NCBI GenBank assembly: GCA_004367365.1
Contig: SESX01000007.1
Location: forward strand, 1 to 35,106
Reading direction: 5' to 3'
Length of the DNA stretch: 35,106 nucleotides
From: Candidatus Acetocimmeria pyornia
GTDB taxonomy: Bacteria; Bacillota; Sulfobacillia; UBA3575
Shown here: positions 4,411 to 34,647 of the stretch, piece after piece
Numbering within the stretch: position 1 is the first letter of the stretch
Layout: each line of letters starts with the position of its first letter
The notes under the pieces: generated by a model
Database searches by the model: none
Seen by the model: only the letters and a program-made list of their open reading frames with translations
What the model was told of the DNA's origin: nothing
Made by a program: the position numbers and the translations under genes

Positions 4411-4682
4411 TACATTTCCCGTCCTGACAAAACAATACTTTTAGCGGTGGCCTCAACAAAATATTATTCTAGCCTTTACTTGACTTCCAAGGGGGGTGGC
4501 GTCTCCGGGCTATCTTCGAAAATCTCCAGGTCGAAAAAGTTCCCATGATTATTGTGGCGCCCAAGGATTGAAGACCACCTCATTGGAAGTTCGCCCGTAA
4601 ATAAACTTCCCCCTCGAGCGCCCGCTTTCCTGCCTTTGAGGCAAAGGTGTAGGAGGAGTAACTCCTGCCTCATACCGCCCCT

Positions 4683-4774
4683 GAAGCGGCACTACGGCCC
4701 ATGAAAACTGGAGCCGGTACCCGGCGGGCCTCGCTCGGGTGGCACCACCAAAAGTTGCACGCCAGGGGTGCTCC
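4683..4774 (+). repeat. Dispersed imperfect repeat, copy A (similar to 17249-17319)
   Basis: Shares G-AGCGGC..TAC.., ATGAAAA-TG..G-CGGTA and the 21-mer GTTGCACGCCAGGG(G/T)TGCTCC (20/21) with copy B. Confidence 0.5.
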
Positions 4775-4845
4775 AAAGGGACCCTTTAATGCTGCAGGAC
4801 CAGAGGGGCGAGGGATCATACACAGGATCATGATTGAAGAAGGAA

Positions 4846-4875
4846 TAGCCCCCTTGGTCACGAACCAAGGGGCTA
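4846..4875 (+). promoter_or_regulatory. RNA hairpin directly 5' of the Shine-Dalgarno of the molybdopterin oxidoreductase
   Basis: TAGCCCCCTTGGT-CACGA-ACCAAGGGGCTA (12 bp, one bulged C), followed directly by AAGGAGGG and the GTG start at 4891. Confidence 0.5.
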
Positions 4876-4890
4876 AAGGAGGGAACTGCC

Positions 4891-7060: not shown

Positions 7061-7568
7061 ATCGACCCCTTCCCAGGTTGAACTGACCCTACTCAACGCC
7101 CACTTTAGCTGGATCGCTGTCACCCTGGCCCTCCGGCAAACATCGTCCCGTTACAAGACCTGCCCGGAAAAAGGCCCTGAGACCGGCTGCAGTCAAAGCA
7201 AGGAGAACCTGTCGACCGATGTTGCCATAAAATTAGGAAAAGCGGCACCTTTTGCATTTTTGCAGAAGGAATTCTGGGGGTGCCATGGAATATTATAGGA
7301 GGTGGTTCCGGCCAATTTGTTTGTGAAAAGGCAAGACTTGTGATCCTGTAAGCAGCCCCCCTTCTTTGCTGGGGCTGAAGCGAGGTCTCCCCGGGCCGGC
7401 GCCGGTGTACAGTTTTGTGAAATACGAGGCGATCTTTTCCTGCGGCCCTGGCACTGCCGGACGTACGCGGCAGGGTGACCGCTTGAAAAAAATTATACAT
7501 AAATCCATCTAGGTTTTTATATACATTGAAATACAATGGTAGTTTTTGGTGGCAAGGAGGAAAAGGAG

Positions 7569-9521: not shown

Positions 9522-9727
9522 CTTGCTTGGTTGGCTCTGTAACCAACATTCATACGGTAATGGTTTTTAGGGAATTTGACCTTGCTTTATCCTTAAAGGG
9601 TTTTCATGGGAGTTCATGGCCTTAAGGAACGAAAGGGGTTTAACAAAAAAATGTGACACACACAGGCTCTCAGGGTTCATGTGCTACAAGCTTTTGAATA
9701 TGCAATTTTAAGGTGAGGTGGATACTC

Positions 9728-10648
9728 GTGGAAAAAAGGATCATAACTGCTGCCATCACAGGTGCCATACACACCCCTACCATGTCGCCCTATTTACCCA
9801 TTACGGCGAAACAAATTGCAGAAGAAGCCGTGCGCGCCCACGAGGCGGGGGCGGCGGTAGCACATATTCACGTTCGAGACGAAGAGACCGGGCGTCCGGC
9901 ATCTGATATGAATCTTTTCAGGGAAGTAGCTTCTTATGTAAAAGCCCGCTGTGACATGATAATTTGTTTCACTACCGGCGGTCGTCTCGGGGCAAGTGTA
10001 GAAGAGCGCATCAAAGTTGTGCCTACATTTGAACCAGAACTAGCGTCTTGCAACTTCGGTTCTATTAACTTTGCACTCTTTCATGTTTTAGAACGCCTAA
10101 AAGAAGTTAAGTATTCTTGGGAAAAAGATTACTTAGCCATGACAGAGGACTTTATTTTTCCGAATACCTTTAAGACTTTAAAAGATTACTCTAGATATTT
10201 TAAGAAATACAACACCAAGGCTGAAATGGAAATTTATGATGTGGGCATGATTAACAACGCAAGTTTTATGATTAACAGGGGGTTTTTTGAAAAACCGGTT
10301 TATCTTCAGTTTGTGATGGGGATCTTAGGGGGAATCCAACCATCAATCGAAAACCTGTTGTTTCTGTATAACAATGCAAAAAAACTTATCGGGGATTTCC
10401 AATGGTCAGTTTGTGCTGCCGGGAAACATCAGACAAATATGTGCACGGCTGCCTTGCTCATGGGGGGGCATGTCCGGGTAGGCCTGGAGGATAATTTATA
10501 CTTGGAAAAAGGCGTGATGGCGAAAAGCAATGCAGAACAGGTGGCCAAGATTGTTCGTATTGCACGTGAATTGGGGATAGAACCAGCTAGTCCCCAAGAG
10601 GCACGCAAAATCCTAGGCCTCAAAGGGTTAGATAAAGTTAAATTCTAG
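9728..10648 (+). CDS. Beta-keto acid cleavage enzyme (BKACE, DUF849; 3-keto-5-aminohexanoate-cleavage-enzyme-like)
   Basis: ITAAITGAIHTPTMSPYLPITAKQIAEEAVRAHEAGAAVAHIHVRDEETGRPASD; FTTGG; GGHVRVGLEDNLYLEKG. Likely GTG start at 9728 after AGGTGAGGTGG. Confidence 0.92.
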   Translation: MEKRIITAAITGAIHTPTMSPYLPITAKQIAEEAVRAHEAGAAVAHIHVRDEETGRPASDMNLFREVASYVKARCDMIICFTTGGRLGASVEERIKVVPTFEPELASCNFGSINFALFHVLERLKEVKYSWEKDYLAMTEDFIFPNTFKTLKDYSRYFKKYNTKAEMEIYDVGMINNASFMINRGFFEKPVYLQFVMGILGGIQPSIENLLFLYNNAKKLIGDFQWSVCAAGKHQTNMCTAALLMGGHVRVGLEDNLYLEKGVMAKSNAEQVAKIVRIARELGIEPASPQEARKILGLKGLDKVKF

Positions 10649-10657
10649 CTTCTTTCA

Positions 10658-10686
10658 CTCCTCCTGCTCCTTGGGAGCAGGAGGAG
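10658..10686 (+). promoter_or_regulatory. Perfect 13-bp inverted repeat in the BKACE / hydroxyacyl-CoA dehydrogenase intergenic region
   Basis: CTCCTCCTGCTCC-TTG-GGAGCAGGAGGAG, with no following U-tract. Confidence 0.6.
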
Positions 10687-10713
10687 AAACCTTAGACGCG
10701 AGGAGATTTGCTG

Positions 10714-11679
10714 ATGATGAAACTGGAAGAGATGCGGAATATCTCTGTCATCGGTGCTGGCATTATGGGCCATGGTCTTGCTCTTACCTACGCCTTAGGG
10801 GGCTATCAAGTAATTCTAAATGATGTTAGCGACACAATTCTTGATGCTGCACTGGAGCAGGTGAGAGACATTCTGGAACTTTATGCAGAAAGGAATCTCA
10901 TCCAGGGAGCCGAGATAAAGGGTGTGCTTTCACGGATATCTGTCACAACCGACTTGCACGAAACAGTAGCAAGTGCTGATTTTGTTACAGAGGCGATTGT
11001 TGAAGACATTACGGAAAAAAGAAAGCTTTTTAAGATGCTTGATGCAATGTGTCCAGGACACACCATTATCGCAAGTAATACTTCATCACTGCTAATTAAG
11101 GATTTTGCTGCAAATATCACAAACCTTGAGAGATTGAACAAGATCTTGATTACCCACTGGTTCAATCCACCGCACATTATACCGGTTGTCGAAGTTGTCC
11201 AGGGAGATCATACCTCAGAAGAAACCGTCAATCTTGTTTGTGAACTCTTAGAGAAAGTGCGGAAGGTACCAATAAAAATAGCACGGGAAATCCCCGGTTT
11301 TTTAGTAAACCGGGTACAGTCGGCCATGTTTCGTGAGGTTCTGTCTTTATGGGAACAAGGAGTAGCCACTATAAAAGATATTGATCTGGCCATAAAGGGA
11401 AGTATGGGGTTTCGTCTGGCCAGCTTTGGCCCCTTTGAAATAGCTGACTTAGGGGGTGTAGATACATGGTACCGGGTTGCTGAAAACTTGTTCAAGGTAC
11501 TTGATAATTCACGCCAACCACCAAGACAACTTAAAGAAATGGTGGACAGAGGAAAACTAGGTTTGAAAACCGGAAAAGGGTTTTATGATTACAGCGAGGA
11601 CTCTCCTCAAGAAAAGCGGGGTAACAAAATTAAGGCAAGGGATATCGAATTCTTGGAGCGCCTAAAACGTTTATATTGA
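10714..11679 (+). CDS. 3-hydroxyacyl-CoA dehydrogenase family protein
   Basis: Rossmann motif ISVIGAGIMGHGLALTYALGGYQV; ASNTSSLLIKDFA; THWFNPPHIIPVVEVVQG; IPGFLVNRVQ; GKGFYDY. SD AGGAG at 10701. Confidence 0.9.
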   Translation: MMKLEEMRNISVIGAGIMGHGLALTYALGGYQVILNDVSDTILDAALEQVRDILELYAERNLIQGAEIKGVLSRISVTTDLHETVASADFVTEAIVEDITEKRKLFKMLDAMCPGHTIIASNTSSLLIKDFAANITNLERLNKILITHWFNPPHIIPVVEVVQGDHTSEETVNLVCELLEKVRKVPIKIAREIPGFLVNRVQSAMFREVLSLWEQGVATIKDIDLAIKGSMGFRLASFGPFEIADLGGVDTWYRVAENLFKVLDNSRQPPRQLKEMVDRGKLGLKTGKGFYDYSEDSPQEKRGNKIKARDIEFLERLKRLY

Positions 11680-11760
11680 TCAAGGTAGTCGAGCCCTAGG
11701 GTTGCTTTTAAGCTGCCCTGAGCCAAGAAATATAGATCTGACACTGGGAGGTCATCTTAA

Positions 11761-12729
11761 ATGACTAAACTCATTACCGGTGGAACTGGCTTTATTGGAG
11801 CCGAGCTTGCACGGATACTTGTTGAGCGAGGCGAAAATGTAGTCCTCTTTGATATCGCGCCGAATTATAATCGCCTGGAAGGTATCGAAACAAAAGTAAA
11901 AGTAGTTCAGGGAGACTTGAGTAACTGGTCCGAGGTTTTTAATGTTGTTAAAGAAAATAGTATTCAATGCATTTATCACCTGGGCGGAATGTTAAGCGTC
12001 CCATCAAATGCAAACCCATGGGCTTCCTTTAGAGCTAATGTTTGCGGAACTTTTCATGTCTTGGAGGCTGCTCGTCTTTTTGAGGTTGAAAAAGTAATAT
12101 TTTCAAGCACCTCCGCCACCTATGGTTTAGACACCGAGCCGGTCGTTACAGATAAATCAGTCCAGCGGCCGACCACCATGTACGGGTGCGGCAAGGTCTA
12201 CGGTGAACTTCTCGGCAGATTTTACCTGAACAAATTTGGATTAGATTTTCGTTCCGTACGGTATCCTTCGATCATTGGTCCAGGCGTGAAAACCCCAGGA
12301 GTCGCCCAATATAACTCCTGGATGATTGAACATGCTGCCCTCGGGAAGCCCTTTGAATGTGATGTAACCGAAGAGACAACAATACCGGTCATGTATTTTA
12401 AGGATGCAGCAAGATGTGCGGACATGATATGTGAAGCACCGAAAGAAAAAATAAAAACAGTGAACTATAATGTGAATGGAATTTCACCGCAAAAAACTGC
12501 CAAGGAAATTGAATTAATCATAAAAAAATATCTTCCGGAGGCTGTTATTACTTATCATCCTAACCCTGAAATCATGAAATTCTATAAATCATTAAACATG
12601 GAAACATACGATGATACTAATGCTCGTGAAGAGTGGGGTTGGACTCCTCTCTATCAAACCTTTGAAAAAGTAGTGGCTGACTTTATTGAGGAAATTCGTC
12701 AACACCCGAAGCGGTACGGGATCACGTAG
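11761..12729 (+). CDS. NAD-dependent epimerase/dehydratase family protein (extended SDR, L-threonine 3-dehydrogenase-like)
   Basis: GGTGFIGAELARILVERGENVVLFD; FSSTSATYG; YGCGKVYGELL. Confidence 0.85.
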   Translation: MTKLITGGTGFIGAELARILVERGENVVLFDIAPNYNRLEGIETKVKVVQGDLSNWSEVFNVVKENSIQCIYHLGGMLSVPSNANPWASFRANVCGTFHVLEAARLFEVEKVIFSSTSATYGLDTEPVVTDKSVQRPTTMYGCGKVYGELLGRFYLNKFGLDFRSVRYPSIIGPGVKTPGVAQYNSWMIEHAALGKPFECDVTEETTIPVMYFKDAARCADMICEAPKEKIKTVNYNVNGISPQKTAKEIELIIKKYLPEAVITYHPNPEIMKFYKSLNMETYDDTNAREEWGWTPLYQTFEKVVADFIEEIRQHPKRYGIT

Positions 12730-12737
12730 AACTGAAC

Positions 12738-12789
12738 AGCCACGGGTGTTCCTTTGAGACCAGCAATCAAAGCTGGCCTTGGCTTTTTT
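12738..12789 (+). terminator. Rho-independent terminator ending the BKACE operon
   Basis: AGCCACGG (12738-12745) pairs with CCTTGGCT (12777-12784), inner stem CCAGC/GCTGG, then TTTTTT. Confidence 0.7.
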
Positions 12790-13164
12790 GGTCAGGCGAA
12801 TAACGTGCCCGAAGACGGGGTAGCGTGCAGCTGACAAGTCGCCTTCTACAGGCCTCAAGGGCTCACCATCACATCATCTCAGGTGTTGTGTTTTTTTCCT
12901 GCCCTCTACCAGCCAACTACGGGAGGCTGCCCCGTCCTCGGCTCGACCTTTTGGTTTCCATCTGCCGGCTTCGAGGAGGGCCTTTGTTGCAGTAGACTTG
13001 GATTCCACCCAGACCTTTCGACCTCTGATCATCTAGTGGCCGCTTGGACCCTGCAGCACCTAACCAACCACCACATGCAACCACCACATGTATTGAACCT
13101 GGACAGGCCTTATATGGGTCGAAGCCTGAGCATGCGCGGGTACTTTGGGCTCAAAGGGGGAGGG

Positions 13165-14901
13165 ATGTGCTTGTTGGTTCAAGATATGGTTGATGTTCCA
13201 CTGGCAGCAATGGTGGTGCTGCCGGTCCACACCTCTCCTAGCGAAGCTCTGAAGATCTTGGATGCCAACGGTGAAAGTGTCGGCGTCGTGGTGGACAAGA
13301 AAGGCTGCTTGCTGGGCAAGGTGAGGAGAGACCTGTTGCTGTCGGAAAGTGACCATGAGAACCTACGTCCTTTTCTGGAGCCTGTGGAAAATATCGTGCG
13401 TACTTTCGAGAACGCAACAGTTTTGGTTTCTTCCTTTCGAGACGGCCGTAGGAAGAAGGTGTACGTGGTAGATGAGGATGGCAACTTGGTTGGTGCCGTA
13501 TCCTCAAGGAACAACGGTCTTAACACCTTGGTCAAGGCGAGCAGTTTACTGCCCATTCCTGACATTTTTGATGCCATGCATGATGCAATCATTGTCATCG
13601 ATGAAACAGGAACCATTGTCTACGCCAACCATGCTTATTCACGCATCATCGGAGTCCAGGTGGGAAAAATTTTGGGCAAGAGAATGCAAACAGTAGAACC
13701 TACTTCACCCTGCCTAGGGGTTTTGAATGGTGATCCACCGATTCTAAACCGGTGTATACGGATTCAATCCCTTGGAATTGAAGTAATAGCCAGTATTACC
13801 CCAATTTATCAAGGTCAGAAAAAAGTAGGTGTTATTTCCGTTTTTCGCAGTATTGATGAGACCCTCAGGCTGAGCATCGAGCTGCAAAGGCTGAAGAACG
13901 CGGCCTCGAACCTGCAGCGAAAATCAAAACGAGAGCGCAAGCTCCCCCCGGCTTTTGCACATTTTGTGGGGAAAAACAAGCGTTTCCTGGATACCCTGGC
14001 CTTGGCAGCCAAGGTGGCGCCAACGGGTGCTACGGTGATGATCCGGGGAGAAAACGGTGTGGGCAAAGAGATTCTGGCCAAGGCGATCCATAACAGCAGC
14101 CCACGCAGCAGCCGTCCCCTGGTTAAGGTAAACTGTGCAGCTATCCCTGAGCAGTTGTTGGAGAGCGAACTTTTTGGCTATGAAGAAGGTGCATTTACAG
14201 GGGCCAAAAAGGGAGGTCGGATCGGGAAATTTGAATCGGCCCATAAGGGTACGCTCTTTCTAGATGAAGTGGGGGACATGAGCCTGGCCATGCAGGCCAA
14301 GCTTTTGAGGGCAATCCAGGAAAAGGAGATTGAGAAAATTGGTAGCAACCGGGTAGTACAGGTAGATGTACGGATAATTTCGGCTACCAATAAAGATCTG
14401 GAAGCCATGGTGGCCCAAAAGCGCTTTCGGGAGGACCTTTATTACCGCCTCAATGTAATGCCGATTATGATCCCGCCCCTACGGGAAAGAAAAGACGATA
14501 TACCGTTACTGGCAGAGCATTTTATGAAGCAGTACTGCAGTGAACTGGGGAGAAAAGAAATCGTGATTTCCTCTGAGGTTATGGAGATATTCATAGCCTA
14601 CAGGTGGCCAGGGAATATTCGAGAGCTTCAGAATGCTGTGGAGCATGGAGTTATCCTGTGCACTGACGGTGTCATGACTCCCGAGCACCTACCTTGGTAC
14701 TTGCAGAAGGTATCGAGTCGAGTTCAGGTTAGTCAACCCAGCGGTGTGACGGCACTGCGCAAGCTGGTTGCCCAGGTGGAAAAGGAGGCCATCGTGGAAG
14801 CTTTACGGATGTGTAATAACAACAAGAGTGCAGCCATTAAGGCACTTGGCATTAGTCGGCGCACATTTTACGAAAAGATGAAGAAGTACCGGATACGGTA
14901 G
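13165..14901 (+). CDS. Sigma-54-dependent transcriptional activator (CBS-like N-terminus, PAS, AAA+ with GAFTGA, Fis-type HTH)
   Basis: GENGVGKEILAKAIHNSS Walker A; EGAFTGAKKGG; GTLFLDEVGDM; C-terminal NNNKSAAIKALGISRRTFYEKMKKYRI. The open frame extends to 12883, but the segment before ~13165 does not look domain-like. Confidence 0.92.
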   Translation: MCLLVQDMVDVPLAAMVVLPVHTSPSEALKILDANGESVGVVVDKKGCLLGKVRRDLLLSESDHENLRPFLEPVENIVRTFENATVLVSSFRDGRRKKVYVVDEDGNLVGAVSSRNNGLNTLVKASSLLPIPDIFDAMHDAIIVIDETGTIVYANHAYSRIIGVQVGKILGKRMQTVEPTSPCLGVLNGDPPILNRCIRIQSLGIEVIASITPIYQGQKKVGVISVFRSIDETLRLSIELQRLKNAASNLQRKSKRERKLPPAFAHFVGKNKRFLDTLALAAKVAPTGATVMIRGENGVGKEILAKAIHNSSPRSSRPLVKVNCAAIPEQLLESELFGYEEGAFTGAKKGGRIGKFESAHKGTLFLDEVGDMSLAMQAKLLRAIQEKEIEKIGSNRVVQVDVRIISATNKDLEAMVAQKRFREDLYYRLNVMPIMIPPLRERKDDIPLLAEHFMKQYCSELGRKEIVISSEVMEIFIAYRWPGNIRELQNAVEHGVILCTDGVMTPEHLPWYLQKVSSRVQVSQPSGVTALRKLVAQVEKEAIVEALRMCNNNKSAAIKALGISRRTFYEKMKKYRIR

Positions 14902-14980
14902 GGCGTTGATTAAGCGCGCCCAGCGCAATTTTAGAACCTGTTGATGAAGGTAAAAGAGCTTGTGGGGGCCATGGAGATTA

Positions 14981-14991
14981 TATACATTATA
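14981..14991 (+). repeat. 11-bp direct repeat TATACATTATA, copy 1 (candidate enhancer site)
   Basis: Exact copy at 15089-15099; lies ~240 bp upstream of the -24/-12 promoter. Confidence 0.35.
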
Positions 14992-15088
14992 GCCGTACGT
15001 CTAAAAAGTATACAAAGAAAGGAGTGGTGTTGCGCTGTTTCATAAGGATGGGCTTCTAACAATTTAACCAAGAAACCTGTCTACAATC

Positions 15089-15099
15089 TATACATTATA
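15089..15099 (+). repeat. 11-bp direct repeat TATACATTATA, copy 2 (candidate enhancer site)
   Basis: Exact copy of 14981-14991; lies ~130 bp upstream of the -24/-12 promoter. Confidence 0.35.
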
Positions 15100-15218
15100 T
15101 ATCTAATCTAAATATAAACACGGTGCTGAGGGTGCCTTGCGGGGTTTAGATTTAGATAAAGGTTGCGAGTGGTCGGGTGGAACCGCGGGGCAGGTATTCC
15201 TTCTGGTACTTGGTAATC

Positions 15219-15235
15219 TTGGCGCGATTTTTGCG
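15219..15235 (+). promoter_or_regulatory. Sigma-54 (-24/-12) promoter for the BCCT transporter
   Basis: TTGGCGCGATTTTTGCG against consensus YTGGCACGRNNNTTGCW: GG and GC elements present with exact spacing. Immediately downstream of a sigma-54 activator gene. Confidence 0.75.
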
Positions 15236-15484
15236 ATAAAGGGTTTGTGTGGTAGTAGCTGTAACCCAAATCAAAACCTACCTACCGCGGGTCTACGTGT
15301 ACTTGGAGGAATGTCGAGAAACATCAAGCGGCATGCCTTGGCGCAAGAAGGGAGGGGGTAAAGGAAAGCAAGAGATATGCGAATTTTCGAACGATGGAGT
15401 AGTGACAGAGGCGATGCAGCTGAAGAAGTTCAGAAAGTGGTATTAACAACAAATTACAAAATCTTGTGATCGGAGGTAGGTGTG

Positions 15485-17068
15485 ATGCAAAAAACCAGTG
15501 TGGATTGGCAAACATTTTTACCCACGCTAATTGTCTTGGCATTACTCTCTGTCTCCATTGCCATTAATCCTGAAGGAGCGGGCGAAGCTGTCAATTCAAT
15601 GTTGGCCTTTATTACAAATCAATTTGGCTGGTCTTTTGAACTTTTTGTCCTGGGGATATTTTTCTTCTTGATGTGGTTAGCTTTTGGACCTTACGGAAAA
15701 GTAAAGCTGGGTACACCTGATGATGAGCCGGAGTTTTCATATTTTACCTGGATCGCGATGTTGTTTTGCAGTGGAATTGGTACTACCTTGTTGTACTGGT
15801 CTATTATCGAACCGATGTATTATCTCCAAGGACCACCGGTAGGCGTACAGCCTGGTTTTGAAGCAGGCTCGACTGTTGCAGCGGAATGGGCCGCCACGTA
15901 CGGGTTATTTCACTGGGGGTTCTCCGCGTGGGCTGTGTATGCCATTCCGACACTACCAATCGCTTATGCACTTTACGTAAAGAAAATACCGGTTCTGAGG
16001 TTAAGTGCTGCCTGCAGGGGTGTCCTAGGTAAGCATACAGATGGTGTTATTGGTATAGCTATCGATGTACTCGCCATGTTTGGTATCGTAGGTGGTGTTG
16101 GAACTGCATTAGGTCTTGGGGTCCCGCTGATTTCGACTGAAATCAATGAAATCTTCGGCATCCCAGATACTTTCGGGCTGCAAATAGCGGTAATCTTGAT
16201 TTGGTTGTCCATCTTTGGAACCAGCGTGTACCTAGGTTTATATAAAGGAATCGCAAAGCTGTCTAATTTCACCGTATACTTGGCCCTTGGCTTACTTGCA
16301 TACGCATTCCTGGCTGGCCCCACGATGTACATCCTGAACCTAGCTACCAACAGTGTTGGCTTAGTCTTTGATAACTTTTTCCGCCTCAGCATGTGGACTG
16401 ACCCAATAGCAGAAGGAGGATTTCCACAAGGCTGGACAACTTTTTATTGGGCCTGGTGGCTTGCTTTGGCGCCTTTGATGGGTATCTTCGTTGCTCGAAT
16501 TTCAAAAGGGCGGACCATAAAGGAAGTAGTAATTGCTGAAACGGTATGGGGAACCCTGGGTTGCTGGGTGTTCTTCTTCGTTTTTGGTGGCTATACACTT
16601 AATTTGGAGCTGAACCAGATATTGTCCGTCAGCTCCATCATGTCAGAAAGCGGGACAACAAGGGCTGTTGTTGAGGTTCTCAAGACGTTACCCCTGCCAG
16701 GGCTCGTGATGCTCGTAACTTTGGTAATTTCATTTGTATTTTCTGGAACCACGTATGATTCCGCGGCCTATACGCTTGCCAGCGGCACAACTAAGGGCAT
16801 CGGTCTTGGACAGGAACAACCTCCACGGTGGTTCAGGGCGCTGTGGGCGGTTATTATTACAGTTGTCGCAATTGCATTAATGCTCATCGGTGGATTGAAG
16901 GTTCTTCAGCTGTCATCTGTCGTCGCGGCATTTCCGTTAATACCAGTGTTTGTCATCATGGCCGTATCGTTTGTGAAATGGCTCCATGAAGACCATGGCA
17001 AGTACCTAGCTCCCTCGGCACGCAGTGTTGACCTGGGCAGCGGTTCAAGTCCATCGCTGGATGCTTAA
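15485..17068 (+). CDS. BCCT-family transporter (betaine/carnitine/choline type)
   Basis: ~12 hydrophobic segments; GIGTTLLYWSIIEPMYYLQGPP; WAATYGLFHWGFSAWAVYAIPTLPIAY; FFVFGG; GTTYDSAAYTLASGTTKG. Confidence 0.92.
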   Translation: MQKTSVDWQTFLPTLIVLALLSVSIAINPEGAGEAVNSMLAFITNQFGWSFELFVLGIFFFLMWLAFGPYGKVKLGTPDDEPEFSYFTWIAMLFCSGIGTTLLYWSIIEPMYYLQGPPVGVQPGFEAGSTVAAEWAATYGLFHWGFSAWAVYAIPTLPIAYALYVKKIPVLRLSAACRGVLGKHTDGVIGIAIDVLAMFGIVGGVGTALGLGVPLISTEINEIFGIPDTFGLQIAVILIWLSIFGTSVYLGLYKGIAKLSNFTVYLALGLLAYAFLAGPTMYILNLATNSVGLVFDNFFRLSMWTDPIAEGGFPQGWTTFYWAWWLALAPLMGIFVARISKGRTIKEVVIAETVWGTLGCWVFFFVFGGYTLNLELNQILSVSSIMSESGTTRAVVEVLKTLPLPGLVMLVTLVISFVFSGTTYDSAAYTLASGTTKGIGLGQEQPPRWFRALWAVIITVVAIALMLIGGLKVLQLSSVVAAFPLIPVFVIMAVSFVKWLHEDHGKYLAPSARSVDLGSGSSPSLDA

Positions 17069-24551: not shown

Positions 24552-25604
24552 GTGAAGCTCTTCAATTTAGGGACTGTCCCCAATTTTGACTCCATGGTTA
24601 GCTTCCACGCCCTGGCGCGCATGGGAATCGAGTCCTTGGTGGTGGTTTCACCGAAAACCCCCTACGTGAGTGTGGGGTATTTTCAGGACACGGCCAGGGT
24701 TTTAGATGTCGACCGGTGCCGGGCCTTGAACTTGCCCATTATCCGGCGGGAAGTAGGTGGAGGGTGTGTCCTTCTTGATGAGAACCAGGTGTTTTATCAC
24801 GTGATTCTTAGAAAGGATAATCCCATCCTCCCAAGGACCATCGACGGGATTTACCGCAAGTTTTCCCAACCGCCTATCAACACCTATGCTCACTTTGGGG
24901 TAAAGGTTCATTTCAAACCAGTTAATGACTTGGTTACTCCTGAAGGTAAGAAAATCGCGGGAGAGGGAGGCGCCAATATTGGCGATTGCATGGTCTTTGT
25001 AGGGAGCATCATCATGGATTTTAACGTCAAGATGATGGCCCAGATTTTACGGCTTCCTGACGAGAAATTTCGGGACAAGGTTTACAAGACCATGGAAAAC
25101 AGTATTTCATCCCTGAAGGAAGAACTGGGGCAGACTCCGCGCCGGGAAGAGGTAGAAGAGGTGCTGGTGGAGGAGTTTCGTAAAATCCTCGGCCCGCTGG
25201 AAGAGAGTTCATTAACCCCTGAAATCAAATCCCAAATGCAACTGGTGGAAAAAGAACTCACCGCAGAAAACTTTTTATTTGACGAGCGTTTCCAACGCCA
25301 TGAGGCGATAACCATCAAAGCCGGTTCCTATATCGGATACGGTAATTACAAGGCCAAAGGGGGCCTGATTTCCACTACCGTCACTCTCAACGATGACAGA
25401 ATAGAGGCAGCGAGCATCTCGGGGGACTTTACTCTCAACCCCAAGGAGGCCATAACCCTCTTGGAAAGATGCCTGGATGGGGTTGCTCCATGCCAGGAGG
25501 CGGTGCACCGAGCCTTCAGGCGTGTCATTGAAGCCAACCATTTAAGTATTCCCGGGGTCGACGCTGAGGATTTGAGCCGTGCCGTAATGGATGCCATCGG
25601 GTAG
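24552..25604 (+). CDS. lplA: Lipoate-protein ligase A family protein
   Basis: PIIRREVGGGCVLLDENQVFYHVIL; catalytic-lysine region NDLVTPEGKKIAGEGGANIG; C-terminal accessory domain. SD GGGAGGTGAG. Confidence 0.85.
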   Translation: MKLFNLGTVPNFDSMVSFHALARMGIESLVVVSPKTPYVSVGYFQDTARVLDVDRCRALNLPIIRREVGGGCVLLDENQVFYHVILRKDNPILPRTIDGIYRKFSQPPINTYAHFGVKVHFKPVNDLVTPEGKKIAGEGGANIGDCMVFVGSIIMDFNVKMMAQILRLPDEKFRDKVYKTMENSISSLKEELGQTPRREEVEEVLVEEFRKILGPLEESSLTPEIKSQMQLVEKELTAENFLFDERFQRHEAITIKAGSYIGYGNYKAKGGLISTTVTLNDDRIEAASISGDFTLNPKEAITLLERCLDGVAPCQEAVHRAFRRVIEANHLSIPGVDAEDLSRAVMDAIG

Positions 25605-25883
25605 TTGCTGGAGGACCAGGCCCTGACCGCGGCAACAAGGTGCTCAAGGGGGTGGATAACGGGGAAAGCTGGCGCCCCCTCGAGGGGCCCAAAAAAAGGG
25701 TGCGGCATGATCAATGTGAGGGATTACGATGGCGGTACGAGTAGGACTGGTATCGGTTCATGGAGGCTTGTGTTCAGGGTTTGAAAGAGCCGGATGGCAC
25801 CAGGCAGTCCATGCTGATTAACCTTGTGGCCAGTAAGGCATGGTACTTTGCTAGAACCCATTGAGAACCGGGGAGGGAGAATA

Positions 25884-26846
25884 ATGGCGCTTTCTCAAGA
25901 GAAGCTCCTTGAACTTTACAGGAAAATGGTCACCATCAGGGTGTTCGAGGAAAACACGGCAGAGCTTTTTGCAAAGGGCGAGATTCCCGGCTTCGTCCAC
26001 CTCTATGTTGGTGAAGAGGCGACGGCAGTCGGGGTTATTGCCCACTTAAAGGATCATGACTACATTGCCAGCACCCACCGGGGCCACGGCCACCTCATTG
26101 CCCGTGGTGGTGACGTGAAGCAGATGTATGCTGAGTTGTTCGGCCGAAAAACCGGCTACTGCAAGGGAAAAGGAGGTTCCATGCATATTGCCGACTTGAG
26201 CCTGGGCTTTTTGGGGGCCAATGGTATTGTGGGAGCTGGTCTGCCCCTGATTGCCGGGGCGGCCTTTGCCTGCAAGTACCGCGGAGACGATGGTGTGGCC
26301 GTATGTTTCTTTGGTGATGGTGCTTCCAACCGGGGTACCTTCCATGAAGCCTTGAACATGGCGTCTATTTGGAAACTGCCCGCGATTTTCGTTTGTGAAA
26401 ACAACATGTACGCAATTTCTCTCAGCCAAGAGCTGCACCAAAACATTGATGACGTGGCTGACCGGGCAGCTGCCTACGGCCTTCCGGGCATCAGCGTGGA
26501 TGGTAACGACCTCTTTGCCGTTTACGAGGCGGCGGAAGAGGCGGTCAAACGGGCCCGTAACGGCGACGGGCCAACCTTGATCGAAAGCAAGACCTACAGG
26601 TGGCGCGGGCATTTTGAAGGCGATCCCGTTGTTTACAGGACGGAAGAAGAACTCCAAGCCTGGAAGAAGAAAGACCCGATTGAACGGGCCAAAAAGCGGA
26701 TGATGGAAACAGGTGTTTTGACCGAGGAGGAAGACAAGGCCATTTGGGAAGAAGTCAGGAGCGAGATCCAAGAGGGTATTGAGTTTGCCAAGAACAGCCC
26801 GTTGCCTGAAGAAGAAAGCCTCCTGGAAGATGTTTACTGTGAATAG
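25884..26846 (+). CDS. Thiamine-diphosphate-dependent 2-oxoacid/acetoin dehydrogenase E1 component, alpha subunit
   Basis: GFVHLYVGEEATAVGV; STHRGHGHLIARG; GKGGSMHIAD; ThDP motif GDGASNRGTFHEALNMASIWKLPAIFVCENN. ATG 25884 after GGGGAGGGAG. Confidence 0.95.
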   Translation: MALSQEKLLELYRKMVTIRVFEENTAELFAKGEIPGFVHLYVGEEATAVGVIAHLKDHDYIASTHRGHGHLIARGGDVKQMYAELFGRKTGYCKGKGGSMHIADLSLGFLGANGIVGAGLPLIAGAAFACKYRGDDGVAVCFFGDGASNRGTFHEALNMASIWKLPAIFVCENNMYAISLSQELHQNIDDVADRAAAYGLPGISVDGNDLFAVYEAAEEAVKRARNGDGPTLIESKTYRWRGHFEGDPVVYRTEEELQAWKKKDPIERAKKRMMETGVLTEEEDKAIWEEVRSEIQEGIEFAKNSPLPEEESLLEDVYCE

Positions 26847-26878: not shown

Positions 26879-27850
26879 ATGCCGGAGATGACCTACCTGG
26901 AAGCGATTAACACCGCCCTGCGGGAGGAAATGTCCCGGGATCCCAGTGTTTTTGTCCTTGGTGAAGATGTAGGGGTGTTTGGGGGTTGTTTTGGGGTTAC
27001 CCAGGGGCTGCTGGATGCCTTCGGACCGGAACGGGTCTTGGATACCCCCATTTCCGAGACGGCCATCATCGGGGCCTCGGTGGGCGCAGCCGCCGCCGGG
27101 TTAAGGCCGGTAGCCGAAATCATGTTCATGGACTTCATGGGTGTCTGCATGGACGAAATATTCAACCAGGCAGCGAAAATACGCTACATGTTCGGTGGTA
27201 AGGCAGCCATTCCGATGACCCTTCGAACCCCTTGTGGGGCGGGTCTTGGGGCAGCGGCCCAGCATTCACAAAGTATGGAAGCCTGGTTTGCCCATATCCC
27301 TGGTCTAAAGGTGGTCATGCCTTCGACCCCTGCTGATGCCAAGGGGCTCCTCACCAGTGCCATTAGGGATGACAACCCCGTGATCTTTATTGAGCACAAG
27401 ATGCTCTACGGTGTCAAAGGTTCGGTTCCGGACGGCGAGTACGCCATTCCCCTGGGCAAAGGGGATGTCAAGCGGGAGGGAAGTGACGTGACAGTGGTGG
27501 CCACCTCCCTGATGGTGCACAAAGCCCTGGCTGCCGCGGAGACCTTGGCTGAGGAAGGGGTCGAGGTCGAAGTGGTTGACCCGCGTTGTCTTGTGCCCCT
27601 GGATCAGGACACGATTCTCAAGTCGGTGGCGAAGACGGGTAAGCTGGTGGTGGTCCATGAAGCAGTCAAGAGCGGTGGTATCGGCGGTGAAATTGCTGCC
27701 ATCGTGGCTGAAGAGGGTTTTGATTTCCTGGATGCACCCATCAGGCGTATCGGGGCGCCCTTTGCGCCAATTCCCTTTGCTTCGAACCTAGAAAAGGCCT
27801 ATATCCCCAGTGAAGAGACCATCATTGAAGCGGTAAGGTCTTTAGCATAG
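26879..27850 (+). CDS. 2-oxoacid/acetoin dehydrogenase E1 component, beta subunit
   Basis: [76 protein letters not shown]. Confidence 0.96.
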
Positions 27851-27940
27851 CTGGCACGTGGTTGGGAATGGACGGCTTCAGGGTGGAAGCCTGGGCCGTT
27901 CATTCCCTCTTTGTGCAGAATGCGGGGAAGGGGTGTCAGA

Positions 27941-28954
27941 GTGCCCACTGTCGGGATTATTGCCAATCCGGCCTCCGGCAAGGATATCAGGCGTTTGGTG
28001 GCCCACGCCACTGTCTTTGATAACCTTGAGAAAGTGAATATTGTCCGGAGAGTTTTGCTCGGCCTTGAGGCGGTAGGGGTTACCCGGCTCTTATTCATGC
28101 CTGACTATTTTGGCATTATCCAGCGGGCCCTGGAAGGGCTTACCGGTGACTACTCTCTGAAGATGGACGTGGAATGCTTGAAAATGCCCCTTACCGGAGA
28201 ACAAGAGGACTCCCTGGTGGCGGCTAGGCTCCTGGCAGAAGAGAAGGTCGGGTGTATCGTCACCCTGGGTGGGGATGGGACCAACCGGGTGGTAGCCAAA
28301 GGCTGCCGGCAGGTACCGCTTGTACCGATCTCTACCGGGACCAATAATGTTTTCCCATCCATGGTGGAAGGTACCATCGCCGGCATGGCCGCCGGCTTGG
28401 TGGCCACCGGGAAGGTTGCGCCGGAGGTGGCCCTGACCAGGAACAAAAAGATTGACATTTACGTTAACGGCTCCTGGGAAGACATGGCCCTGGTTGATGT
28501 GGTAGTCCTGAAAGAACAATTTGTCGGCTCACGGGCTATTTGGCATGAAAGGAAAATCAAACAAGTTGTCGCTACCTGCGGTGAAGCCACCAATCTTGGC
28601 ATCACGTCCATGATCGGCGCCTTGCATCCCCTCCCGCCCGCTGACCCCCGGGGTATGGCTGTGAAGGTCGGTACCGGCAGGACCAAAGTGTTGTCTGCCC
28701 TTGGACCGGGTTTGATAAAATCCGTGTCTATAGCTGAATACCGTTTTCTTGACCCGGGTGAAAGGGTGGTGGTGGAGACCATACCGTGTGTGATGGCTGT
28801 TGATGGTGAACGTGAGGTGGAGGTCGGAAGCCGGGACCGGGTGGAACTGGTACTCAACTGTGATGGTCCGCTTGTTGTAAATATTAAGGCTACCATGGAT
28901 GCAGCTGCCCGGCGGGGTGTCTTCAGGTGTACCCAGGGTCATGGGAGCTCGTAG
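27941..28954 (+). CDS. acoX: ATP-NAD kinase-like protein, AcoX type
   Basis: VGIIANPASGKDIRRLVAHATVFDN; GCIVTLGGDGTNRVVAKG; PISTGTNNVFP; located between E1 and E2 genes. GTG 27941 start. Confidence 0.85.
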   Translation: MPTVGIIANPASGKDIRRLVAHATVFDNLEKVNIVRRVLLGLEAVGVTRLLFMPDYFGIIQRALEGLTGDYSLKMDVECLKMPLTGEQEDSLVAARLLAEEKVGCIVTLGGDGTNRVVAKGCRQVPLVPISTGTNNVFPSMVEGTIAGMAAGLVATGKVAPEVALTRNKKIDIYVNGSWEDMALVDVVVLKEQFVGSRAIWHERKIKQVVATCGEATNLGITSMIGALHPLPPADPRGMAVKVGTGRTKVLSALGPGLIKSVSIAEYRFLDPGERVVVETIPCVMAVDGEREVEVGSRDRVELVLNCDGPLVVNIKATMDAAARRGVFRCTQGHGSS

Positions 28955-28972: not shown

Positions 28973-30562
28973 ATGATGGCCGTAAAAGTAGTGATGCCGA
29001 AACTCGGTCTCACCATGAAAAAAGGGAAGGTTGCCAGGTGGCTCAAAGAAGAGGGCCAGGAGGTTACCAGGGGCGAGGACCTGCTGGAGATTGTAACGGA
29101 GAAAATTGCCAGTACGATGGAAGCCCCGGCCAGCGGTATCCTCTACAAGATCCTGGCCCCAAAGGGGAGTATTGTCCCCGTCGTCTCCCCGGTTGCCGTC
29201 ATCGCCGAACCGGGTGATGATGAAAAGACCCTCCAACAAATGGTAAAAGAAGCTGAGGCTGAACTGGCCAACACCCGGGTGGAGGCCAGGGAGGCGAAGA
29301 AGACCGTCAAAGAGCCCAAGAAAAGAGGGGTTGACCTCATCCGGACGGGGAAGGCCCGCAGGATATCCCCGCGGGCCCGGCGCCTGGCGGAGGGAAAAGG
29401 GGTTGACCTGGATTACGTGCCCGGTACGGGTCCCGGCGGGAGGGTGACGGAAAAGGACGTCAGGGAATACCTCGAGGAACTAGACCGGGAGAAAGAGCCA
29501 GAAGTAATTCCGTTGGAAGGGATGCGCGGTATTATTGCGGAGCGCATGACCGAAAGCCACCACCGGGCGGCAAGGGTCACCATTTTGCAGGAGGTGGATG
29601 TTACCAATCTTCAGGACCTGAGGGTCAAGATCAATGAGGTCTTCCAGCAGCAGGGCCGAGGCAAGGTGTCCTATACAGACCTGATTGCCGTCCTGGTTGC
29701 CCAGGCCCTTAAGGAACATCCCCGGCTTAACGGCCGGGTACTTGAAGACAGGGTTGAACTTTACAGCGGGGTCAACATGGGCATCGCCGTTGCCCTTGAT
29801 GACGGGCTCGTGGTACCGGTGATTCACAAGGCACACCGCCTTTCCCTGGAACAAATGTCGGAAAGGATCAAGTCTGCGGCCCAAAGGGCGAGGGACGGGG
29901 ACCTGGAACCGGAAGAACTCGAGGGTGGTACCTTTACCCTTACCAACCTGGGGATGTTCGGGGTTGAGGGCTTTACACCCCTCATTAATCCCCCCGAAAC
30001 GGCCATCCTGGGTCTTGGCACCATTTCCGAAAAACCGATGCTCAAGGATGGAATCCTGGAGCAGCGTCTTTGTATGACCCTGAGCCTCTCCTTTGACCAC
30101 CGTGCTGTTGATGGAGCGCCGGCGGCCCTGTTCTTGAGCCGGGTAAAGGAGATGATGGAAAACCCTCATTTGCCCTTTCAGATGGATGCCCCCCAAGTGA
30201 GTCGGCCCCTGGTGGCCGCTGGAAGGCGGGACCCTCGGGCCTTGGTCCAGGCCTTTGCTGATGGAATGGAGTGGCTGAACGACGAGGCACCAGACCTGGC
30301 CCTAGGCTTCGATGCTTTGATGGCCCCTGTTTTTGCCGAGGGTGAGCTTTCCACCAGGGTGAAAGAGCTCATTGCGGTAGCCCTCTCGGTCCATATCAGG
30401 TGCGAGTACTGTATTCCCTACCATGTTCACAAAGCTGTAGAGGCCGGAGCTCATCCTGATGAGATCCTGGAAGCGGCCGCGGTGGCATTGGGCTTTGGCG
30501 GCGGGTCGGCCATGGCCTACGTGGTAACCCTGGTCAAGGAATGTATCGAGGCCTTTTCTTAA
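28973..30562 (+). CDS. Dihydrolipoamide acyltransferase (E2) with lipoyl, PSBD and catalytic domains, fused to a C-terminal AhpD/carboxymuconolactone-decarboxylase-like domain
   Basis: Lipoyl domain EIVTEKIASTMEAPASGIL; PSBD ISPRARRLAEGKGVDLDYVPGTGPGGRVTEKDV; E2 active site DHRAVDGAPAALFL; then a CMD-like tail VKELIAVALSVHIRCEYCIPYHVHKAVEAGAHPDEILEAA. One uninterrupted frame. Confidence 0.93.
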   Translation: MMAVKVVMPKLGLTMKKGKVARWLKEEGQEVTRGEDLLEIVTEKIASTMEAPASGILYKILAPKGSIVPVVSPVAVIAEPGDDEKTLQQMVKEAEAELANTRVEAREAKKTVKEPKKRGVDLIRTGKARRISPRARRLAEGKGVDLDYVPGTGPGGRVTEKDVREYLEELDREKEPEVIPLEGMRGIIAERMTESHHRAARVTILQEVDVTNLQDLRVKINEVFQQQGRGKVSYTDLIAVLVAQALKEHPRLNGRVLEDRVELYSGVNMGIAVALDDGLVVPVIHKAHRLSLEQMSERIKSAAQRARDGDLEPEELEGGTFTLTNLGMFGVEGFTPLINPPETAILGLGTISEKPMLKDGILEQRLCMTLSLSFDHRAVDGAPAALFLSRVKEMMENPHLPFQMDAPQVSRPLVAAGRRDPRALVQAFADGMEWLNDEAPDLALGFDALMAPVFAEGELSTRVKELIAVALSVHIRCEYCIPYHVHKAVEAGAHPDEILEAAAVALGFGGGSAMAYVVTLVKECIEAFS

Positions 30563-30679: not shown

Positions 30680-31393
30680 CTGGCAGGTAAGGTTTCTTAT
30701 CTGAACCTTGGTTTCATGGATTACGGGAAGGCTTACTGGATTCAAAAACGACTTCACCAAAGGCGGGTAGCCGGGCTAACCAGGGATGTGCTCATCCTGG
30801 TGGAGCATGCCCCGGTGCTTACCATGGGGCGTGACGCTGGGAGAGAGCATATCCTGGTCGGGGATGACGTGCTGCAAAGACACGGCATCTTAATCTACCA
30901 GGTGGAACGGGGCGGTGACGTAACCTACCACGGGCCTGGGCAGTTGGTAGGGTACCCGGTTCTTGACTTAACCCGGTGGGGCAGGGACCTGCACGGCTAC
31001 GTGAGGCGGCTCGAGGAAGTTATCATCAGAACCCTAGCCTGTTACGGGGTGACAGCGGGGCGTCGAGAGGGTTACCCGGGTGTCTGGGTAGGTGACAAAA
31101 AGGTTGCTGCCCTGGGGGTAGCGGTGAAGAGATGGGTGACCATGCACGGGTTCGCCTTCAACATCAACAGCCACCTGGAACACTTCCAGTTCATTGTGCC
31201 CTGTGGTATTTCCGAGTACGGGGTTACTTCCTTGGCCGAGGTTCTGGGCCAAGAACAGGATTTTCGGGAGGTGTCCCGGGTGCTCAAGAAGCAGTTTGCG
31301 GGGGTTTTTGGGATCGAACTGGTTCCGGTGGCCCTGGATGGTCTTCTTTTTGGGGACAAAGGTCTTCCGAAGACGGGTGGACCCAGCCCCTAG
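30680..31393 (+). CDS. lipB: Lipoyl(octanoyl) transferase
   Basis: VEHAPVLTMGRDA; QVERGGDVTYHGPGQLVGYPVLDL; GVWVGDKKVAALGVAV; IVPCGISEYGVTSL. The only ATG is 30716, but the conserved N-terminal strand SYLNLGFMDY begins upstream, so 30680 (CTG) is proposed. Confidence 0.9.
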   Translation: MAGKVSYLNLGFMDYGKAYWIQKRLHQRRVAGLTRDVLILVEHAPVLTMGRDAGREHILVGDDVLQRHGILIYQVERGGDVTYHGPGQLVGYPVLDLTRWGRDLHGYVRRLEEVIIRTLACYGVTAGRREGYPGVWVGDKKVAALGVAVKRWVTMHGFAFNINSHLEHFQFIVPCGISEYGVTSLAEVLGQEQDFREVSRVLKKQFAGVFGIELVPVALDGLLFGDKGLPKTGGPSP

Positions 31394-31644: not shown

Positions 31645-32574
31645 GTGACAAGGAAGATGAAAAGGTGGCTCAGTTTTTCCAAGAAGCCCATAAAATACAG
31701 CCAAGAGCGGGGGCCAAGGCCGGCGTGGCTGAAGGTACCTGTTCCCGACCAAGGGGCACTGCACGCGATGGAGACCCTGCTGCGTGGTGCCGGCTTGCAC
31801 ACGGTGTGTGAAGGGGCCTTGTGCCCCAACATTGGCGAGTGTTTTGCAAAAGGGACGGTTACCTTCATGATCCTCGGTGACACCTGTACCCGACACTGTC
31901 GTTTTTGTGGGGTGGGCAAGGGCCAGCCCCAAGTGCCCCGGGAAGAGGAACCCGAGAAGGTGGCCTGGGCGACACGGCAGCTGCGGCTGCAGCACGTGGT
32001 GATTACTGCGGTGACCCGGGATGACCTGCCCGAGGGTGGGGCAGAACACTTTGCCCGTACGGTGAAGGCCATTCACAGGATCGCGCCTGGAACAACGGTG
32101 GAGGTGCTGGTTCCAGATTTTCAAGGTTCCGAAAAGGCCCTCAGCCTAGTGGTGGATGCCCAACCGGAAATAATTGGCCATAACGTGGAAACCGTACCTC
32201 GGCTCTACCCTGAGGTGAGGCCAGGCGCGGATTACGGGCGCTCCCTGAACTTGTTGGAAAGGGTGAAGAGGCTGGACCCTGGTATCAAGACCAAATCGGG
32301 GATGATGCTGGGATTGGGAGAGAAGGAAGCAGAGGCTTTGGGGGTATTGAGGGATTTAAGGGGAGTCGGCTGTGATTTTGTCACCTTGGGGCAGTACCTG
32401 CGGCCCACGGGAAAACAGCTGCCGGTACGGCAATACATCACCATCCAGGCCTTTGCGGAGTTGGGACGGCGGGCCAGGGAAATGGGCTTTGCCCACGTGG
32501 TATCCATGCCTTTGGCCAGGAGTTCGTACCAAGCTGGGGAAGCTGTTACAAGCCTTGCTGGGGGAGAGAAGTAA
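31645..32574 (+). CDS. lipA: Lipoyl synthase (radical SAM)
   Basis: Auxiliary cluster CEGALCPNIGEC (CX4CX5C) and radical SAM CTRHCRFC (CX3CX2C); TAVTRDDLPEGGAEHF; LGQYLRPT. Start is GTG 31645 or ATG 31657. Confidence 0.96.
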   Translation: MTRKMKRWLSFSKKPIKYSQERGPRPAWLKVPVPDQGALHAMETLLRGAGLHTVCEGALCPNIGECFAKGTVTFMILGDTCTRHCRFCGVGKGQPQVPREEEPEKVAWATRQLRLQHVVITAVTRDDLPEGGAEHFARTVKAIHRIAPGTTVEVLVPDFQGSEKALSLVVDAQPEIIGHNVETVPRLYPEVRPGADYGRSLNLLERVKRLDPGIKTKSGMMLGLGEKEAEALGVLRDLRGVGCDFVTLGQYLRPTGKQLPVRQYITIQAFAELGRRAREMGFAHVVSMPLARSSYQAGEAVTSLAGGEK

Positions 32575-32737
32575 GGGGGTATCAAGCTGAGCTACAAGAA
32601 ACCGAGGAGCAGTCTCCTTTAAAAACCTGCTGGCGGCATGTTCTGTTCCTACATAACTTTATCATGGATACCCATTGAGGGTGAGGAGGACGGAAGAAGA
32701 AATCCCTCGGAACAACGTTGGTGGAGGTGTGAACCAG

Positions 32738-33178
32738 ATGGCCGTCGTCAAGGGTTACGAAATTCCCGAAGGGCTTTACTATACCAAAGACCACGCCTGG
32801 CTCAAAGTTGAGGGTGGTAACAAGGTTCGCGTTGGTTTAAACGATTTTGCCCAAAAGCTAGCGGGCAAGATCTCTTATGTTAAGGTGCCAAGGGTCGGTA
32901 AGGAGGTAACCCATGGTAAGGTCCTTTTCTCGCTGCAGGCGAAAAAATGGACCGGTAAAATCATGGTGCCCCTGGCCGGGATGATTGTGGAGGCTAACCG
33001 GGACTTACTTCGTCGTCCTGGGCTGCTAAACCAGGACTGTTACGGAAAGGGCTGGGTGGCTGTCATCAAGGCTGCCAACCTGGCGCAGGATTTAGCCCGG
33101 CACTTGACCGGTGAAGCCGCTCACCGTTGGATAAGGAAAGAAGTAGCCCGGGTGGAGGCTGAGAGGGGAAAGAAGTGA
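32738..33178 (+). CDS. GcvH-like lipoyl carrier protein
   Basis: LYYTKDHAWLKVEGGNKVRVGLNDFAQKLAGKISYVKVPRVGKEV; putative lipoyl-lysine in LQAKKWTGKIMVPLAG at the expected -8 offset from the P-x-x-G turn. Confidence 0.85.
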   Translation: MAVVKGYEIPEGLYYTKDHAWLKVEGGNKVRVGLNDFAQKLAGKISYVKVPRVGKEVTHGKVLFSLQAKKWTGKIMVPLAGMIVEANRDLLRRPGLLNQDCYGKGWVAVIKAANLAQDLARHLTGEAAHRWIRKEVARVEAERGKK

Positions 33179-34647
33179 TTCAGCTACCCAAGAACCTAAA
33201 GGAACGGTTTGGGTCACGATGCACAGATTCACGGTTTGAATGTTCCTTTTACGGCCGAGATGTTGCCTACATTCCACCTTTCTTGGTGCGGCTCCTCACC
33301 CGGCCGGTACCAGACATGGTCTTCAGACCCCTTTGTGCCGAGGAAGTGAGTGAAATCATCGCCTTTGCAGGCCGCCGGAGGCTGGCGGTGACCCCCAGGG
33401 CCGGAGGTTCCACGGCCCTGGGAAGCTGTGTGCCGGTCAAGGCCGGCATCGTCATTGATTTGAATGGTCTGAAAGGTGTACTAGGTTTTGAGGCGGGCAA
33501 GGAAAAGGTCAAGGTGTTGCCTGGTACCACCTGGGCAGAACTGGACGGTTACCTGCGGCGCAGAGGTTATTGTGTGCGTTCCTATCCCAGCAGTTTCCAT
33601 GTTGCCACCATCGGTGGGTGGCTCTCCGGGGGAGGATGCGGGGTCGGCAGTCTTCGTTATGGTCCCCTGGTGAACCAGGTGAGTTCCCTGGAGGTGGTTC
33701 TTCCTTCAGGGGAAATAAGGAGGGTAACTAGGCATTCCCAGCCCTGCGTGTCGTGGTTTGCCGCCGCTGAAGGGACACTTGGGGTCATCACAGGGGTAGA
33801 ACTCAAGGTGAGGACGCTGCCTGAAGCGACGCGGCATTTCTTGCTGGCCAGCAAGGAACCTGGCGGCCTTTTTGAAGCGGCCAGGGATTGTGCCCGCGGG
33901 TTGGCCCACCCTGTCTACAATCTCCATTACAACAGCCGGTCCCTGAACTGGGCCTTGCAAACGGGTGGACTGGCACCTGAACCACTGGGCAGGTACCATA
34001 CCTTGGCCGTGAGCTTGGAGGGAACCCCGACAGACCTGGACCGGGCAGGGGAGTCTATCTGGTCGATGGTCAAAGGGTATGGATTGACAATGTTGGATGA
34101 CTCTTTGGCCCTCGAAGAATGGGAGAACAGGTTCCGGCTTTTGCGCATCAGGCGTCTTTACCCTTCCCTGCTTGCCTGTGAACTGCTGGTGCCGACAGCC
34201 TCCTGCCAGCAATACCTTGAGGAGGTGGAGAACCTGGGACGGCAGGCCGGGGTCAGGATGCTCACCTATGCTCACATCATTTCCCGGGACCAGGCCCTGG
34301 TGATGACCCTCTATTACTCAGATGAGGGAAACCCCTTCAGGTACCTATGCGATGCCAGCTTAACGGCCCGCATTTACCGCACCGGGTGCAGGCTTGGGGG
34401 AGGACCCTACACCATTGGTTTCTGGAATACACCTTACTTGCATTTACAGAAAATCCACCACCCGGACAGACTGCAGGAATTGCGGCAGCGCAAGTTGTTG
34501 CTTGATCCCCAAGGGATTCTGAATCCTGGGAAGGTTTATGGGCCAACACCCCTTTTATCCCCGGTACTGTTCGGAATCGGGCTCAAGGCGGCAGGGTTTT
34601 TGCGGGTATTTCTCCACGAGAGGGTGCGGTGTGATGGTTGGGAATAA
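33175..34647 (+). CDS. FAD-linked oxidase (GlcD-like, FAD_binding_4 / VAO type)
   Basis: PRAGGSTALGSCVPVKAGIVIDLNGLKGVL; GTTWAELDGYLRRRGYCVRSYPSS; TIGGWLSGGGCGVGSLRYG. Overlaps the upstream stop (GTGA). Confidence 0.9.
   Translation: MIQLPKNLKERFGSRCTDSRFECSFYGRDVAYIPPFLVRLLTRPVPDMVFRPLCAEEVSEIIAFAGRRRLAVTPRAGGSTALGSCVPVKAGIVIDLNGLKGVLGFEAGKEKVKVLPGTTWAELDGYLRRRGYCVRSYPSSFHVATIGGWLSGGGCGVGSLRYGPLVNQVSSLEVVLPSGEIRRVTRHSQPCVSWFAAAEGTLGVITGVELKVRTLPEATRHFLLASKEPGGLFEAARDCARGLAHPVYNLHYNSRSLNWALQTGGLAPEPLGRYHTLAVSLEGTPTDLDRAGESIWSMVKGYGLTMLDDSLALEEWENRFRLLRIRRLYPSLLACELLVPTASCQQYLEEVENLGRQAGVRMLTYAHIISRDQALVMTLYYSDEGNPFRYLCDASLTARIYRTGCRLGGGPYTIGFWNTPYLHLQKIHHPDRLQELRQRKLLLDPQGILNPGKVYGPTPLLSPVLFGIGLKAAGFLRVFLHERVRCDGWE

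Follow-up and report, generated by a model that had tools for sequence, protein, structure and literature searches.

In textbook 2-oxoacid and acetoin dehydrogenases, E3 is required for the transfer of electrons from lipoic acid to NAD+. The locus described here raises the question of how a lipoyl arm might be discharged when the E2 that bears it continues into an AhpD-like thiol domain and the operon around it has no E3. It lies on a stretch of 35,106 nucleotides (the window), which is an entire contig of a 2.75 Mb genome assembled in 327 contigs.

An E2 in one frame with an AhpD-like domain

The E2-CMD fusion gene (28973..30562, + strand, as are all features below) is a single open frame of 529 aa, with ATG codons at 28973 or 28976 as options for the start, preceded by GGAGGGG, and a stop at 30562. 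Four Pfam domains lie on the one chain: a lipoyl domain (28985..29203; PF00364 Biotin_lipoyl, residues 5–77, E 6.7e-12) with the modifiable Lys44 (TEK) at 29102–29104; a peripheral subunit (E3)-binding domain (29360..29464; PF02817 E3_binding, residues 130–164, E 7.2e-14); an E2 acyltransferase catalytic domain with the motif DHRAVDG (29492..30172; PF00198 2-oxoacid_dh, residues 174–400, E 2.3e-80); and, after a linker of ~20 aa with predicted disorder (30173..30232; pLDDT <50 at residues 401–416), a CMD/AhpD-like domain (30290..30541; PF02627, residues 440–523, E 1.5e-17). The last scored 63.8 bits (cut-off 23), and the NCBIfam AhpD core domain model TIGR00778 matched residues 457–505 (42.7 bits, cut-off 27.8). 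The open frame, Pfam and TIGR00778 thus bear out the original prediction that a complete E2 continues in frame into an AhpD-like CxxC domain, so that lipoyl donor and CxxC acceptor share one polypeptide. The C-terminal extension is present as described; its length had been put at ~125 aa, and the CMD part is closer to ~110 aa because it begins near residue 420.

The proposed catalytic spacing E-x11-C-x2-C-x3-H is exact, with Glu465 (GAG at 30365), Cys477 (30401), Cys480 (30410) and His484 (30422), the CEYC motif spanning 30401–30412. By sequence, the nearest solved structures to the CMD are PDB 3bey and the AhpD of 5dik. In an AF2 model the CMD is all-helical (pLDDT ~95), the lipoyl domain is equally well predicted (pLDDT ~95) and the binding domain is confident; the linkers are of low confidence and the E2 core is poorly modelled (thin alignment). 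A fold search of the PDB gave only E2 structures among the 50 matches listed and is therefore silent on the CMD. Judged by its sequence, the protein is an E2, having the lipoyl Lys, the subunit-binding and catalytic domains and HxxxDG, and acyltransferase activity is predicted; the core domain model, the predicted all-helical fold and the E-x11-C-x2-C-x3-H set likewise place its C-terminal part in the AhpD family, with a putative lipoyl-dependent reductase/peroxidase activity.

A search for the same architecture across genomes recovered the fusion in 11 further genomes, giving 12 with the window, all of the phylum Bacillota and from several families: five came from 399 sampled Bacillota genomes and six from the order of one of those five. 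Sampling of the window's own class (154 genomes) turned up no further fusion. The concern that close relatives might lack the fusion is therefore answered at the level of the phylum, yet the class itself contributed no other case. A frameshift or chimeric contig as the source of the fusion was ruled out by the 11 independent genomes with the same single-frame arrangement. In the alignment, 12/12 fusions retain the lipoyl Lys, DHRxxDG and E-x11-CEYC-x3-H. Known parts are combined in a new, conserved arrangement, and searches of the open-access literature turned up no E2-CMD or E2-AhpD fusion.

In a tree of 118 CMDs, which rests on 119 columns and whose deep forks are unsure, the 12 fused sequences group together as a clade (support 100/94), with five separate Bacillota cmd genes from E1-E2 loci as its sister (support 94/79). 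Since the fused E2s are likewise monophyletic in the E2 tree (support 100/99), a single fusion event is the simplest reading. A separate cmd gene immediately follows E2 in four loci (L184, L188, L193 and L229), and in Pelosinus (L070) it lies a few genes downstream of E2 in a locus whose other gene content nearly matches that of the window. More distant separate E2/CMD pairs occur in Thermodesulfobacteriota and Rhodospirillales. E1-E2 with a separate CMD was also seen in L074–L076, L081, L082, L093 and L095 (Thermodesulfobacteriota and relatives), and in L077 (3479–6920) an acyl carrier protein stands between the two (E2-ACP-CMD). CMDs of the Thermodesulfobacteriota type have Gln in place of the motif Glu (8/8). 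Fusions in Thermodesulfobacteriota, hinted at by tblastn spans, were rejected, E2 and CMD being separate genes there. Many Clostridia carry a different set, MarR - CMD - lipoyl-E3 fusion - LplA (e.g. L122, 3386–7029), and 42 of the 118 CMD rows adjoin an E3. Around control CMD loci of lower similarity (L222–L228 and L230), lipoyl genes were mostly not nearby; a plasmid search gave six CMD relatives, all below 60% identity.

An acetoin dehydrogenase-like operon

Upstream of the fusion gene, the operon begins with an LplA-like lipoate-protein ligase (24552..25604; PF21948, E 4.1e-34), followed by the E1 alpha subunit of a thiamine diphosphate dehydrogenase of PDH/acetoin type (25824..26846; PF00676, E 6e-103; TIGR03182, 401.1 bits, cut-off 393.85), the E1 beta subunit (26879..27850; PF02779 and PF02780, with NF006667 over its cut-off) and an AcoX-like protein of NAD-kinase-like fold (27911..28954; PF01513, E 5.1e-10), so labelled by family resemblance and operon position. 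Downstream lie LipB octanoyltransferase (30716..31393; TIGR00214 over cut-off), LipA lipoyl synthase (31645..32574; TIGR00510 over cut-off), a GcvH-like lipoyl carrier (32675..33178; PF01597, E 4.3e-31) whose Lys is conserved in the alignment, and a GlcD-like FAD-linked oxidoreductase (33175..34647; PF01565 and PF02913). Relatives have a GlcF/HdrD-like CCG protein after the GlcD-like gene (L179–L181, L188, L193 and L229), and the window's contig ends before that position. Since a distinct GcvH sits beside the glycine cleavage P-protein (GcvP) on another contig of the genome (C157), the GcvH-like protein of the operon is a second such carrier. Scans for promoters and terminators gave signal no better than chance.

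AcoX and LipA genes stand beside E2 in all fusion loci, and the E1 alpha-E1 beta pair is found in every one with enough contig, that of L181 stopping at AcoX. The LplA, GcvH-like and GlcD/GlcF-like genes mark the window's subgroup of fusion operons; eight fusion operons are without adjoining GcvH, GlcD or GlcF. Downstream of the E1-E2-CMD genes of L184, HdrA-HdrB-HdrC-like genes accompany a GcvH-like carrier (1503–6046). Further joined frames occur in the fusion operons: LipB and LipA share one in seven of them (L182, L183, L213–L216 and L219), and L181 has an 836-aa LplA-LipA frame (3799–6306).

Containing both E1 genes alongside AcoX and E2, the operon looks like that of acetoin dehydrogenase minus E3, and the AcoX-like protein and the types of E1 and E2 suggest, indirectly, acetoin as the substrate. 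The acetoin dehydrogenase system (acoABC, acoX, acoL; Pelobacter carbinolicus, Bacillus subtilis) likewise has E1 alpha/beta, AcoX, a lipoyl E2 and linked lipoate-synthesis genes, with acetoin/butanediol genes near some of the copies considered here: an acetoin reductase scoring over its cut-off adjoins the fusion operon of L216, and zinc alcohol dehydrogenases, by sequence resemblance, lie near L070 and L188. Unlike that system, the fusion operons have no E3 (AcoL), and their E2 bears a C-terminal CMD.

E3 at the locus and in the genome

No E3 is found within the window's operon; a linked E3 (AcoL) is likewise missing from the rest of the window and from each of the 11 further fusion loci. 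The window's organism itself is not without E3, a possibility ruled out by its single canonical Lpd, which adjoins glyA. Across loci, E3 is present in 0/27 with a CMD and an E2 versus 9/21 with an E2 and no CMD (Fisher p 1.8e-4, kinship being ignored and locus lengths differing; the latter count becomes 10 if an incomplete E3 where the L066 contig ends is included). As the remaining 12 of these 21, about half, are likewise without E3, a missing local E3 is weak evidence when taken alone. More weight falls on the closest E2 operon without a CMD (L232), whose order E1a-E1b-AcoX-E2-E3-LipB-LipA places E3 in the slot beside E2, and on the genome-level result, which together outweigh the absence of E3 from any single locus.

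With the Lpd of the window's genome as query (17 genomes, E 1e-40), Lpd was found in every genome except G485 and G555, both of them fusion genomes of one family; 10/12 fusion genomes thus carry Lpd elsewhere. The sole Pyr_redox_dim proteins of G485 and G555 have no CxxxxC disulfide and resemble enzymes of the CoA-disulfide-reductase type. Lpd mostly tracks GcvP in the tested set: GcvP was not found in G485, G555 or G545, the last of which retains Lpd, and GCV_H matches in G485 and G555 were only weak. A missing contig is unlikely to account for the result in G555, as this genome consists of one contig with a completeness rating of 100%. Fusion of E2 to AhpD where the operon has no E3, together with the two genomes without recognisable E3, suggests that lipoic acid may give up its electrons by a new route.

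Where the dihydrolipoyl electrons may go

Our preferred interpretation, to which we assign a probability of roughly one half, is that the protein is an acetoin-dehydrogenase-type E2 core whose CMD takes the dihydrolipoyl electrons, standing in for E3. E1 would load an acetyl group onto the lipoyl arm and E2 would pass it to CoA, leaving dihydrolipoyl; the arm would then visit the CxxC of the CMD on the same assembly instead of the flavoenzyme E3, the Cys pair being reduced and the lipoyl re-oxidised, and the reduced CxxC would pass electrons onward. Of the two functions originally offered, an alternative step of dihydrolipoamide oxidation and a thiol peroxidase, the former is favoured by the E3 slot, by the lack of E3 from every one of the 27 loci with CMD and E2, and by the two fusion genomes in which E3 was not found, and re-oxidation of the lipoyl arm by the CMD in place of E3 is the most economical reading. 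It is supported by the repeated presence of CMD relatives in loci with E1-E2 (Pelosinus, Thermodesulfobacteriota, Rhodospirillales) or next to lipoyl-E3 (Clostridia), and by the mycobacterial precedent, cited below, of an AhpD that receives electrons from a lipoylated E2. As counterpoints, the E3-binding domain is retained, the Lpd encoded elsewhere in most fusion genomes could serve the complex, and the eight fusion operons without GcvH/GlcD/GlcF show no evident acceptor.

More tentatively, and with a chance somewhat below even, the operon may encode a complete E3-free lipoyl dehydrogenase complex, in which thiol electrons would run from the AhpD domain built into E2 to the second lipoyl carrier and on to a GlcDF/Hdr-type oxidoreductase, so that acetoin electrons would bypass NAD+. 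Under the preferred interpretation too, electrons in the window's subgroup would probably pass to the GcvH-like lipoyl carrier and the GlcD/GlcF-like flavin/iron-sulfur proteins (HdrABC-like in L184), consistent with the conserved Lys of the carrier and with the adjacency of these genes to CMD-E2. Lipoate-dependent sulfur oxidation by sHdr-LbpA (PMC6067878) similarly has a GcvH-like carrier with dedicated lipoate-assembly genes, and the HdrABC-like proteins of L184 add to the likeness. The carrier here, in contrast, is tied to an E1-E2 complex and its partner in the window is GlcD-like rather than Hdr-like; of the gene set that defines that system (Hdr-like genes plus LbpA), the window holds only a GcvH-like and a GlcD-like gene.

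The main rival is the thiol peroxidase, a self-contained antioxidant in which the CMD would use lipoyl-arm electrons on peroxides or protein disulfides, with a shared E3 re-oxidising the rest. Its precedent is the Lpd-DlaT(SucB)-AhpD-AhpC chain of Mycobacterium tuberculosis, which has a lipoylated E2 with an AhpD-type CxxC and the same Glu/Cys/Cys/His set, and in which AhpD receives electrons from lipoylated E2 (Bryk 2002, as cited in PMC8945050). Lipoylated proteins supply AhpD with electrons, and in C. glutamicum it can pass them to OsmC (PMC8945050). The identity of the catalytic set, the Lpd of 10 fusion genomes and the clostridial gene sets, many of which place this CMD subfamily next to a MarR regulator and lipoyl-E3, all agree with such a role. 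We nevertheless regard it as less likely than replacement of E3. The mycobacterial AhpD is separate and works with AhpC and E3, whereas here it is fused to E2 and the locus has no E3. Judged by eye, none of the three PF00578 matches of the window's genome (two ResA/TlpA-like and one redoxin-like with an in-frame TGA) looked like a typical AhpC. Nor was a peroxidase gene recognised in the fusion operons; and where E3 is missing from the genome as well as from the locus, reducing power would come from the substrate only. The clostridial sets, whose closely related CMD adjoins a lipoyl domain, differ in that this domain is on E3 and there is no E1/E2. They suggest that electrons can run from NADH through lipoyl to CMD, probably in the reducing direction, which speaks against our preferred reading, and may form a compact NADH-lipoyl-AhpD reductase system.

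Two other roles for the CMD appear less probable again. It could act as a redox sensor or repair domain, for instance freeing lipoyl-protein mixed disulfides, with an NAD-linked E3 borrowed from the glycine cleavage system; the retained E3-binding domain and the general co-occurrence of Lpd with GcvP, from which Lpd could be shared, fit this idea, which we consider quite improbable given that G555 and G485 keep the fusion operon without GcvP or a canonical Lpd. There is only a slight chance that the CMD is not redox-active on lipoyl, and instead acts on a substrate (as carboxymuconolactone decarboxylase does) or merely shapes the assembly. PF02627 does take its name from a decarboxylase, and one CMD gene, which lies close to acoABX on a plasmid of Sphingobium and was given without a function, has been weighed for a step of the metaldehyde pathway, a proposal labelled speculative (PMC9676059). 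However, the PcaC decarboxylase model TIGR02425 gave no match to the E2-CMD protein at E 0.001 while the AhpD core model was over its cut-off, CxxC and Glu/His are strictly kept in 12/12 fusions, and the association with lipoyl genes recurs.

If the CMD does stand in for E3, the E2-AhpD fusion would be a second route for lipoyl arm discharge, one that could let anaerobes send electrons elsewhere. The fusion also offers a fused, testable form of the mycobacterial lipoyl-to-AhpD electron transfer, and it hints at what a widespread CMD subfamily, for which a decarboxylase family name is usually all that is given, might do.

Several features outside the operon may be recorded. The redoxin-like frame with an in-frame TGA is a candidate selenoprotein (own genome C13:4384–4788; also L211, about 1315–1971). 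A second CMD of the window's genome has an in-frame TGA near the position of the second active-site Cys (CEP*; L002 788–1117, C47:839–1072) and is a candidate AhpD-like selenoprotein. Within the window, acetoacetyl-CoA synthetase-like, BKACE-like, 3-hydroxyacyl-CoA dehydrogenase-like and BCCT transporter genes occupy 7536–17068, a set that, read by eye, looks like one for carnitine or betaine breakdown.
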